Below, in pieces: positions 44,546-48,899 of a stretch of 64,000 nt of DNA. Location of the stretch: positions 186,001-250,000 of the forward strand of contig NZ_JARDUA010000004.1 of assembly GCF_029360645.1 (NCBI RefSeq), written 5' to 3'. Each line of letters starts with the position of its first letter. Within the stretch, counting starts at the first letter, position 1. The translations under genes were made by a program, and so were the position numbers. The notes below the pieces were generated by a model. The model saw only the letters and a program-made list of their open reading frames with translations, did no database searches and was not told where the DNA came from. This DNA comes from Pontibacter litorisediminis (GTDB lineage: Bacteria; Bacteroidota; Bacteroidia; Cytophagales; Hymenobacteraceae).

Positions 44546-46930
44546 TTACGATCCGCAAGCTTCGCAAGCGTCTGGGTTGTCTAGCGAGCAAGCCATGTCG
44601 CTGCGGTTCTGGTCTTGTTGGTTATACACCGGCGAAAGGGTTTCGGCGGCTTGTTTCTCAACGGTAAACTTAATCGCGTCTACCGCAGACTTGGTGCGCA
44701 GGTAGTACATACCTGTTTTCAGGCCGCGCTTCCAGGCGTGGAAGTGCATTGAGGTCAGTTTGCCGAAGTTCACGTTCTGCACGTGCAGGTTCAGCGACTG
44801 GCTCTGGCAGATAAAGGCACCACGGTCGGCACTCATATCGATCACGGCACGCTGGCTAATCTCCCACACAGTTTTGTACAGGTCCTTGATGTGCTGCGGG
44901 ATGTTTGGGATGTCCTGCACAGAACCGTTGGCCGCGATGATGTCGTTCTTCATCTTATCGTTCCAGATACCCAGCGCGATCAGGTCACGCAGCAGGTGCT
45001 TGTTCACCACCATAAACTCGCCAGATAGTACGCGGCGCAGGTAAATGTTGGAAGTATAAGGCTCAAACGACTCGTTGTTGCCCAGGATTTGCGCTGTAGA
45101 GGCAGTAGGCATAGGCGCTACCAGCAGCGAGTTACGCACACCGTGCTTCACCACGTCCTGGCGCAGGCTTTCCCAATCCCAACGGCCGCTTTCCGGCGTT
45201 ACGCCCCACAGGTCGAACTGGAACTTGCCTTCTGAAAGTGGAGAACCTTTGAACGTCTCGTAGGCGCCCTGCTTCTTGGCCAGGTCCTTAGAGGCCGTCA
45301 TGGCCGCAAAGTAAATGGTCTCGAAGATATCCTTGTTCAAGCCTTTTGCCTCTTCGCTCTCGAAAGGCATGCGCAGGTGAATGAACGTATCCGCCAGGCC
45401 CTGCACGCCCAACCCGATCGGGCGGTGGCGCAGGTTAGAGTTCTGTGCCTCCGGTACTGGGTAATAGTTGATATCGATCACCTTGTTCAGGTTAACCGTG
45501 GCATGGTAGGTTACATCAAACAGCTTCTGGTGGTCGAAGGTCTTGTTGCCGTGCTCATCCTCTTTCACGAAGCGAGGCAGCGCCAACGAGGCCAGGTTAC
45601 ACACGGCTATCTCGTCTTTGCTGGTGTACTCCATAATCTCGGTGCACAGGTTCGAGCTCTTGATAGTGCCTAGGTTCTGCTGGTTAGACTTGCGGTTGGC
45701 GTGGTCTTTATACAGCATGTACGGTGTGCCCGTCTCGATCTGCGACTCCAGGATGTGGAACCACAGGTCCTGCGCTTTCACGGTTTTGCGGGCGCGGCCC
45801 TCGCGCTCATACTTCTCGTAGAGGCGCTCAAAATCCTTGCCCCAGCTGTCGCCCAGGCCAGGTGCCTCGTTCGGGCAGAACAGGCTCCAGTCGCCGTTCT
45901 CCTCCACGCGCTTCATAAACAGGTCTGGTGTCCAAAGGGCGTAGAACAGGTCGCGGGCGCGGTTCTCTTCCTTGCCGTGGTTCTTCTTCAGCTCCAGGAA
46001 GTCGAAAATGTCGGCGTGCCACGGCTCCAGGTAAATCGCGAAGGCGCCTTTGCGCTTGCCGCCGCCTTGGTCCACATAGCGGGCCGTGTCGTTAAACACC
46101 TTCAGCATTGGGATGATACCGTTGGAGGTGCCGTTGGTGCCTTTGATGTAAGAGCCCGTAGCACGCACGTTGTGGATGCTCAGGCCGATGCCGCCGGCGC
46201 TCTGCGAGATCTGCGCGCACTGCTTCAGGGTATCGTAGATGCCCGGAATGCTGTCGTCCTGCATGGTGAGCAGGAAGCACGAAGAAAGCTGCGGCTTCGG
46301 TGTGCCGGCGTTAAATAATGTTGGGGTGGCGTGCGTAAACCATTTCTCAGACATGAGATTATAAGTCTCGATGGCAGATTCGATGTCCTCCTTATGGATA
46401 CCCACGGCCACACGCATCAACATATGCTGCGGGCGCTCCACGATCTTGCCATCCAGGCGAAGCAGGTAAGAGCGCTCCAGTGTCTTGTAACCGAAGTAGT
46501 CGTAGTTGTAATCGCGGTCGTAGATGATGGTGGAGTCGAGCAGGGCCGCGTGCTTGCGGATGATCTCGTACACATCCTTGGCAACGAGCGAGGCGTTCTC
46601 ACCCGTTTTCGGGTCTGTATAAGTATACAGGCGCTTCATGGTGTTGGAGAACGACTTGCTCGTAACCTTGTGCAGGTTAGAGATCGCCACACGTGCCGCC
46701 AGCACGGCATAGTCCGGGTGCTTGGTGGTGAGCGACGCGGCCGTCTCGGCAGCCAGGTTATCCAGCTCCACGGTGGTCACGCCGTCGTAAATGCCGTCGA
46801 TCACCTTTTTGGCCACCTCAATCGGCGACACATAGTCCATGTGCAACCCATAGCACAGCTTCTCGATGCGTGCGGTAATCTTGTCGAATTTGACGGACTC
46901 GCGTCTGCCGTCTCGTTTAACTACTAACAT
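44546..46930 (-). CDS. nrdA: Ribonucleoside-diphosphate reductase alpha subunit (class Ia)
   Basis: NrdA is the catalytic large subunit that reduces ribonucleotides to deoxyribonucleotides. The 794 residues include an N-terminal ATP-cone ('[23 protein letters not shown]'), '[21 protein letters not shown]' (active-site Cys), '[23 protein letters not shown]' and the C-terminal redox Cys pair in 'CEACGS'. The gene lies downstream of nrdB on the same strand with a 369-base gap. No terminator is apparent after it; the AT-rich orphan gene follows. Confidence 0.97.
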
Positions 46931-47299: not shown

Positions 47300-48259
47300 T
47301 TAAAAGTCTTCGTCCAGGCTGAACACGTTTTTATCTTTGTCGCCCAGCACGCCGGCTTTCTGGTACTCGCCTACGCGCTTCTCAAAGAAGTTGGTCTTGC
47401 CCTGCAGCGAGATCATCTCCATAAAGTCAAATGGGTTGGTGGAGCCATAGATCTTCTTATAGCCCAGCTCACCCAGCAGGCGGTCGGCCACAAACTCAAT
47501 GTACTGGCTCATCAGCTTGGAGTTCATCCCGATCAGGTCCACCGGCAGGGCATCGGTCACGAACTCCTGCTCAATGCTCACCGCATCGCGGATAATGGCG
47601 TGCACGCGCTCCTCCGATAGTTTGTTCTGCAGCATAGAGTACAGCAGGCAGGCAAAGTCACAGTGCAGGCCTTCGTCGCGGCTGATCAACTCGTTAGAGA
47701 AGGTCAGTCCTGGCATTAACCCGCGCTTCTTCAGCCAGAAGATAGAGCAGAAAGAACCGGAGAAGAAAATACCCTCCACGGCCGCAAAAGCGATCAGACG
47801 CTCGGTGAAGTTCTCGCTCTCGATCCACTTCAGAGCCCATTCGCCCTTGCGCTTCACGGCCGGCACATTCTCCAGCGCGTTAAACAGGAAGTCTTTTTCG
47901 CTCTGCTTCTTTACATAAGTATCTATAAGGAGCGAGTATGTCTCGGCGTGGATGTTCTCCATCATGATCTGGAAGCCATAGAAGCAGCGCGCCTCCGGTA
48001 TCTGTACCTCGTTCATGAAGTTCACGGCCAGGTTCTCGTTCACAATGCCGTCGGAGGCAGCGAAGAAGGCCAGCACATGGCTGATGAAGTGGCGCTCACC
48101 GTCGTTGAGGTTCTCCCAGTCCTTCAGGTCCTGGCCCAGGTCAATCTCCTCGGCGGTCCAGAAGCTGGCTTCGGCTTTCTTATACATCTGCCACACCTCG
48201 TCATGCTGTATCGGGAACAGTACAAAGCGGTTTGGGTTCTCTTGCAGTATTGGCTCCAT
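47300..48259 (-). CDS. nrdB: Ribonucleoside-diphosphate reductase beta subunit
   Basis: NrdB is the diiron-tyrosyl radical subunit. The 319 residues contain '[15 protein letters not shown]', the metal-ligand helices '[24 protein letters not shown]' and '[24 protein letters not shown]', and '[14 protein letters not shown]'. The length is slightly short of E. coli NrdB but typical for this phylum. It lies upstream of nrdA on the same strand, and its promoter lies in the DnaA-box region. Confidence 0.97.
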
Positions 48260-48423
48260 AATCTTTAAATAAGCGTTTTATTGGTTGAAGGGGTAAGCTG
48301 AGTAGCTTAGAAAACACCCCATTTAAATTTTAGTTTGGATGAATAGGATGGCGTTCACCCGGCATTATCCTGACTTCAAATATATAGAAATGAACTTGAT
48401 TTGCGGGTCGAAAGTTGTTCAAT

Positions 48424-48788
48424 TTATGCACATCCTCCTACGGTGCTACCAAGGCCGATTTTAAGTATAACTAACATGGTTATCCACATTTGTGTTAACA
48501 TATATATTACATAATAGATATTAATAAAGCCATAAGACAAGGAGGTTAGGTACAAAACACCTGCGGTTTTGCCGTGGCAACTGTGTAAGTTGGGTGTACA
48601 GACTGTGAAACGGGTGCTTGCTGTTGCTTATATAAGTGTAACAGGCGGCTAACTTTATAAAACATAGAGGGTGGTGTGGAAAAGTGGCGGGGAAGGGTTC
48701 TGTGTTAACTATCTGTTGCAAAACTGGTTATGCGAATATTGAAAACTATAAGTAAGCCTATATGTGGATATGCACATACTTTTCCACA
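48424..48788. other. oriC: Candidate replication origin: DnaA-box cluster with AT-rich stretch
   Basis: Six DnaA-box-like 9-mers lie in 365 bases: TTATGCACA (48424-48432), TTATCCACA (48480-48488), TGTGGAAAA (48675-48683, minus), TGTGGATAT (48763-48771, minus, one mismatch), ATATGCACA (48768-48776, one mismatch) and TTTTCCACA (48780-48788). An AT-rich stretch at about 48497-48530 could be the unwinding element. The genes on either side are divergent (nrdB left, rplU right). An alternative is DnaA control of nrdB. Confidence 0.55.
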
Positions 48789-48836
48789 GCCTGTATAAGT
48801 AAAGTATACTAGCTGAACAATTTGTTATACAAGCCG

Positions 48837-48867
48837 TTGCAAATATCAAATGGATGCCGTATTTTTG
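48837..48867 (+). promoter_or_regulatory. Promoter of rplU-rpmA
   Basis: TTG (48837-48839), 20 bases, TATTTTTG (48860-48867) matches both Bacteroidota promoter elements with ideal spacing. Confidence 0.72.
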
Positions 48868-48899
48868 CGGACTAAATCTTTAAACATACATTGAAGCTG

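Follow-up and report, generated by a model that had tools for sequence, protein, structure and literature searches.

NrdR is the common repressor of nrd genes. In E. coli, the nrdAB operon is also under established control by DnaA, which has three boxes there and activates or represses transcription according to its nucleotide state and level, and DnaA has been proposed as a transcriptional regulator of nrd in B. subtilis and C. crescentus, as set out in PMC8203912. Clusters of DnaA boxes away from oriC have been described in another context, in which titration of DnaA or modulation of DnaA-ATP is ascribed to datA, with its five boxes, and to clusters in B. subtilis, where six oriC-proximal ones were deleted; the review that describes them doubts the weight of such clusters in B. 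subtilis (PMC5295017). A search among open-access papers for DnaA or DnaA boxes together with nrd, NrdR or transcription in Bacteroidota found none, most subscription journals lying outside its scope.

Here we report an analysis of the intergenic region between nrdB and rplU in a 64,000-nucleotide window (C4:186001-250000) of a 4.99-Mb genome in 17 contigs (G000), whose closest named relatives are Pontibacter. Judging from its sequence and conservation, we regard the region, with a probability of about 0.7, as a DnaA-binding control region for the ribonucleotide reductase gene nrdB, possibly shared with rplU-rpmA. Like the E. coli nrdAB promoter, it has several DnaA boxes preceding a class I nrd operon. 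However, nrdB here precedes nrdA, four strong boxes in two pairs over 365 bp stand against the three of E. coli, the gap is shared with a divergent ribosomal-protein operon, and the genome has no NrdR match, whereas E. coli has NrdR. With B. subtilis and C. crescentus, which belong to other phyla, the locus shares DnaA as the proposed regulator of nrd. Its likeness to datA and the B. subtilis clusters lies in the clustering of strong boxes outside oriC, but the present boxes lie next to a conserved block of the nrdB promoter, and other families also have boxes at nrdB.

The nrdB–rplU intergenic region

The region comprises 640 bp (window positions 48260..48899) between genes that are divergent, as the preliminary description of this DNA had stated, nrdB being on the minus strand and rplU on the plus strand. 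nrdB, for the class I ribonucleotide reductase small chain, occupies 47300..48259 (PF00268, E 6.9e-120); rplU, for ribosomal protein L21 (48900..49208; PF00829), is followed on the same strand by rpmA, for ribosomal protein L27 (49279..49548; PF01016). Gene names at the locus were assigned by Pfam matches. The gene order is nrdB then nrdA, which encodes the large chain with an N-terminal ATP cone (44546..46930, minus strand; PF02867, PF00317 and PF03477). Because nrdA starts 369 bp downstream of nrdB, it may have a promoter of its own.

The length of the gap varies little, from 613 to 660 bp among 45 orthologues. A hidden gene within it was rejected, since no ORF of at least 70 amino acids is wholly contained in the gap. 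A structured RNA or leader was likewise rejected, since an Rfam search of the gap up to E 5 returned two matches, both with E > 4 and far under the cut-offs, which we regard as noise only.

DnaA boxes in the gap

Exact matches to the DnaA-box consensus TTWTNCACA are found at 48424 (+), 48480 (+), 48675 (−) and 48780 (+), four within 365 bp, and sites with one mismatch at 48763 (−, ATATCCACA) and 48768 (+, ATATGCACA). All six of the box-like 9-mers in the preliminary description, four exact and two with one mismatch, are therefore present where it had placed them. Across the 45 orthologous gaps the four exact boxes are supported, whereas the site at 48763 is not (exact in 0/45) and that at 48768 is exact in 1/45. 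The density of boxes, described as far above chance, is so locally but not window-wide. From the base composition of the gap, taken without neighbour effects, 0.048 exact boxes are expected per 365 bp, for a Poisson P(≥4) of about 2e-7 before correction for scanning; the whole window contains 6 exact boxes against 4.26 expected, a number reached by 27 of 100 shuffles. As four of these six lie in 365 bp, the motif is clustered in the window rather than enriched.

The first box, B1 (TTATGCACA; 48424..48432, plus strand), is exact in 33 of the 45 orthologues and has one mismatch in 12. B2 (TTATCCACA; 48480..48488, plus strand) is exact in 28, with one mismatch in 13 and more in 4. B3 (TTTTCCACA; 48675..48683, minus strand), exact in 41 with one mismatch in 4, is the top-conserved 9-mer of positions 48440-48830, and B4, which has the same sequence (TTTTCCACA; 48780..48788, plus strand), is exact in 43/45. 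Spacing within the two pairs is nearly constant: B1 and B2 lie 56-57 bp apart in 25 of the 26 gaps having both exact, and B3 and B4 105 bp (35 gaps) or 106 bp (4 gaps) apart in all 39 gaps having both exact, the pair nearest 105 being chosen where several were possible.

A possible weak box, B6 (48768..48776, plus strand), lies 12 bp before B4. In addition to its one exact occurrence, this site has one mismatch in 11 gaps and two in 30, 23 of which carry ATTTCAACA, a sequence two mismatches from the consensus and yet well conserved (column conservation at the site, 0.86). The AT-rich tract noted in the preliminary description follows B2 (48497..48530), with 22-25% G+C in 60-bp windows starting at 48460-48500, and its TATATa and aATATt cores are conserved in the 45-gap alignment. 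Sun et al. reportedly found in 1994 that an upstream AT-rich sequence matters at the E. coli nrdAB promoter.

Conservation of the boxes

The orthologous gaps derive from 56 Pontibacter nrdB matches, 50 of which were read, 45 adjacent to rplU and 5 not; the other six include one 92-residue fragment. All 45 rplU-adjacent gaps have at least two exact boxes, and 28 have four or more. The nrdB region thus shows the trait of a DnaA-controlled promoter, conserved boxes upstream of nrd, in 45/45 orthologues, with four orthologous boxes. Conservation averages 0.93 over the columns of B1–B4, compared with 0.53 over the rest of 48440-48830. Ranked by conservation without overlap, the leading 9-mers of this interval are B3, B4 and B2; B1 falls just outside it, inside a conserved block. 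Pairwise identity in the middle of the gap averages 45%. Variation within the boxes averages 0.23 at positions 3 and 5, 0.14 at position 6 and at most 0.02 at the other six positions; residues other than A/T appear at position 3 in 12 of 180 cells, and the consensus-fixed position 6 changes to A in 25 of 180. As judged from this alignment, the four orthologous nrdB boxes are under strong selection.

A second nrdB, which is not adjacent to rplU and has no upstream boxes, is present in five Pontibacter genomes (G021, G043, G036, G017 and G038). None of these paralogues has an exact box within 700 bp (0/5).

Putative promoters

Putative promoter elements of nrdB and rplU were identified with TAnnTTTG, which we take to be the −7 consensus of the Bacteroidota type. 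On the minus strand, TATATTTG (48377..48384), in a block conserved among the 45 orthologues (TTCAAATATA), is likely the −7 element of nrdB; no clear −33 element for nrdB was seen in the sequence by eye. The centres of B1 and B2 lie some 58 and 114 bp, respectively, before the predicted nrdB start. Between the −7 element and B1, the 45-gap alignment contains a further conserved block, GAACTTGA...AAAGTTGTTCAATTT (48392..48425), which is possibly the operator of a second regulator. On the other side of the gap, a putative rplU promoter (48837..48867, plus strand) comprises TTG (48837-48839), a 20-bp spacer and TATTTTTG (48860-48867) and is conserved in the 45 gaps, with B4 about 90 bp upstream of the predicted rplU start. 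Since rplU, not nrdB, is the gene closer to B3 and B4, the best conserved boxes, the target of control could be rplU or both genes.

The same position of B3 and B4 would fit a different explanation, that the sites are operators of another regulator reading TTWTNCACA-like sequence, or that they control rplU-rpmA only. The link to DnaA is drawn from sequence alone, position 6 of the boxes varies though the DnaA consensus fixes it, and the conserved block at 48392-48425 suggests that another factor may act here. However, positions 3 and 5, left free by the DnaA consensus, account for most of the variation, and the same strict 9-mer occurs upstream of mraZ. The oriC candidate described below has this 9-mer once in exact form, along with many near matches, and loci without rplU show an enrichment of boxes at nrdB. 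Another regulator, or control confined to rplU-rpmA, is in our judgement improbable.

GC skew and the candidate oriC

The oriC of E. coli lies near mnmG (gidA). The preliminary description had proposed a chromosomal origin between nrdB and rplU, and the region indeed has divergent flanking genes and, as traits of an origin, a cluster of four exact boxes with an AT-rich tract. It does not, however, sit at a sign change of the GC skew. Within the window, all six full 10-kb steps, which lie on both sides of the boxes, have positive skew, and the last 4 kb has −0.022. The cumulative skew of the window's contig in G000, taken from 13 stretches and the window, reaches its minimum near C4:143-147 kb, some 90 kb away from the nrdB boxes. 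For G021 and G028, two one-contig Pontibacter genomes, 20 stretches of 20 kb each were sampled, and the surroundings of the minimum were read without gaps over 335 kb and 355 kb, respectively. In G021 the skew changes sign near 1.50 Mb, being negative on both sides of nrdB at 1.413 Mb; in G028 it does so near 3.315-3.32 Mb, with nrdB at 3.400 Mb and, apart from the minimum, lesser reversals at 3.45-3.46 and at 3.51-3.53 Mb. The nrdB region is an origin-proximal site in these three genomes, about 80-91 kb from the skew switch.

The switch itself adjoins mnmG in G000, G021, G028 and G037. Nine 20-kb stretches of G035 are coarsely concordant, with negative skew at 2.70-2.74 Mb, positive skew at 2.80 Mb and mnmG at 2.796 Mb, one positive stretch at 2.68 Mb being out of line. 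The skew analysis that the preliminary description had suggested as a check thus finds the minimum elsewhere, beside mnmG. Ten stretches of Hymenobacter qilianensis gave a weak and noisy skew without a clear pattern.

The two loci are separated in G037. Its nrdB lies about 344 kb from mnmG, inside the negative arm (15 of 16 sampled half-stretches negative), and its nrdB gap retains three exact boxes; the skew switch, between 4.18 and 4.20 Mb, is still beside mnmG. On the evidence of this rearrangement, in one genome, the skew switch follows mnmG and not nrdB, and the nrdB region did not stay with the replication axis.

With the nrdB gap set aside, the top cluster of sites with at most one mismatch in the stretches scored falls in the same gap in G000, G021 and G028, 3-5 kb beyond mnmG. 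It is located at C4:133832-134161 in G000 (about 340 bp, to 134170; 10 sites, 1 exact), at 1511608-1511999 in G021 (10 sites, 1 exact) and at 3306067-3306456 in G028 (9 sites, 2 exact). This gap is alignable across the three genomes and contains AT-rich blocks. In G000 the cluster coincides with a shallow dip of the skew, and the cumulative minimum is some 12 kb away. The 30 kb beside mnmG hold 13, 17 and 9 boxes in G021, G028 and G000, respectively, a feature noticed post hoc. In number of sites the nrdB cluster falls short of the mnmG side, with 7 in G021 and 8 in G028, yet 5 of them are exact in either genome, which is more than beside mnmG. When exact boxes count double, it scores 12 against 11 in G021 and 13 against 11 in G028; the stretches scored in G000 did not cover its nrdB cluster.

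We take the mnmG-side cluster as the oriC candidate because of its position, not its box strength, and it is likely that this cluster is oriC. As with the mnmG-proximal oriC of E. coli, the skew switch and a box-like cluster lie beside mnmG in Pontibacter; the nrdB boxes differ in being another locus, about 100 kb off. Although the nrdB cluster outscores the mnmG side in G021 and G028, an origin between nrdB and rplU is highly improbable, given the lack of a sign change at nrdB in the window and in G021, the minimum beside mnmG, the displaced nrdB of G037 with its boxes kept, the 9-10 sites by mnmG in three genomes and the boxes found upstream of nrdB also in loci without rplU. A DnaA-box cluster alone is insufficient for calling oriC.

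Boxes at nrdB in other families

All 15 nrdB-rplU gaps from Adhaeribacter and Hymenobacter contain a box, in other arrangements. We also found 59 loci without rplU, mostly titled Chitinophaga, Pedobacter, Mucilaginibacter and relatives, which have 32 exact boxes within 400 bp upstream of nrdB. Shuffling gave a mean of 4.5 and a maximum of 10 in 100 shuffles, and four permuted control motifs gave 0 to 3 matches. The absence of rplU means here that the locus has no tblastn match, some loci reaching little more than 1 kb upstream. The boxes occur in 26 of the 59 loci, the other 33 having no exact box within 400 bp, and as some of the 26 are closely related, the count of 32 overstates the independent evidence. 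The source set consists of the best 80 of at least 592 confirmed loci; 74 were used, leaving out the Pontibacter loci L001-L005, a genus covered by the 45-gap set, and L043. Boxes may follow nrd apart from its neighbour gene, being present in 26/59 rplU-less loci but in 0/5 nrdB paralogues. L043, from a MAG labelled Thalassovita in which rplU adjoins nrdB, has no exact box in 1000 bp, and L019, a Hymenobacter MAG locus without rplU among the 59, has no box.

This distribution bears on the explanation that we consider the main rival, namely that the array serves mainly to titrate DnaA, or as a DnaA-ATP-modulating site near the origin that sets initiation timing, effects on nrdB being secondary. 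It is the main rival because most of the genomes measured have the locus close to the origin and because the boxes nearest to nrdB are not the best ones. Of the 9 Pontibacter genomes compared, 8 have mnmG and nrdB 86-126 kb apart, the four strong boxes have nearly fixed spacing with the best pair away from the nrdB promoter, and the genome has other strong clusters, one of them in a convergent gap after aspS, all of which would suit the roles ascribed to datA and the B. subtilis clusters. By contrast, a titration site requires no particular gene, whereas boxes are enriched at nrdB in loci from other families as well. Moreover, G037 keeps its boxes about 344 kb from mnmG, and B1 adjoins the predicted nrdB promoter with its co-conserved block. 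A role mainly in titration is, on balance, unlikely.

DnaA, NrdR and a model for nrdB control

A single DnaA match was found in G000. In its DNA-binding domain, GGRDHSTVIH aligns with GGRDHTTVIH of the solved DnaA 8btg, which we take to be the B. subtilis protein. NrdR (TIGR00244) was absent in all nine Bacteroidota genomes searched (five Pontibacter, two Hymenobacter, one Chitinophaga and one Sphingobacteriales MAG). In the controls for this search, NrdR was found in 9 of 14 genomes, E. coli included, and was absent in the control Bacteroides.

The preliminary description had also named, as an alternative to an origin, control of nrdB through the boxes, on the model of nrdAB regulation by DnaA in E. 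coli. This reading is favoured by the conserved boxes with their nearly constant spacing, by their absence at the paralogues and enrichment at nrdB elsewhere, and by the missing NrdR; that DnaA itself binds B1–B4 is what we infer from the box sequences. In the proposed model, DnaA would bind two pairs of high-affinity boxes, B1/B2 and B3/B4, the second an inverted pair 105 bp apart, or about ten helical turns, and looping may take place between B3 and B4. The amount of DnaA and its ATP/ADP state would set the transcription of nrdB, and perhaps of nrdA, whereby the supply of dNTPs would follow replication initiation, and rplU-rpmA may share this control. By analogy with E. coli, low DnaA or ADP-DnaA would activate, and much ATP-DnaA would repress. 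The transcription starts, the timing in the cell cycle and any effects on nrdA or rplU are what we infer in the same way.

A broader proposal, which we advance tentatively and hold to be rather doubtful, is that in Bacteroidota the transcription of class I ribonucleotide reductase may be governed mainly by DnaA. This protein would head a conserved cell-cycle regulon that includes nrdB(A) and rplU-rpmA, through the 105-bp box pair common to two divergent promoters, and the division cluster, through the TTATCCACA triplet before mraZ. If true, initiation would be linked through DnaA with the supply of dNTPs and ribosomes and with division. The nrdB array, the mraZ array and the mnmG-side oriC candidate provide three defined sites at which to ask whether DnaA links replication with the synthesis of dNTPs and with division in this phylum, in which no genome searched had NrdR.

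Other DnaA-box clusters in the genome

Upstream of mraZ and the division cluster, C1:1060072-1060118 contains three exact copies of TTATCCACA, two in tandem and one inverted. Of 30 Pontibacter loci, 29 have the complete triplet and every one has at least two copies, at nearly fixed positions. The triplet is followed by AAAGTGG repeats with a 10-bp period, which presumably resemble known MraZ operators. As an origin this cluster was rejected, the sampled skew being mostly negative on both sides.

Four strong boxes lie within 197 bp at C3:233808-234004, upstream of an ECF sigma factor gene; this cluster was also rejected as an origin, with sampled skew mostly positive or near zero on both sides. 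Another four strong boxes, at C6:88122-88298, lie in the gap where aspS and a Dioxygenase_C-family gene converge, and this cluster, for which no promoter role is in view, is possibly a datA-like site. Finally, three exact boxes occur within 120 bp at C4:453051-453170.
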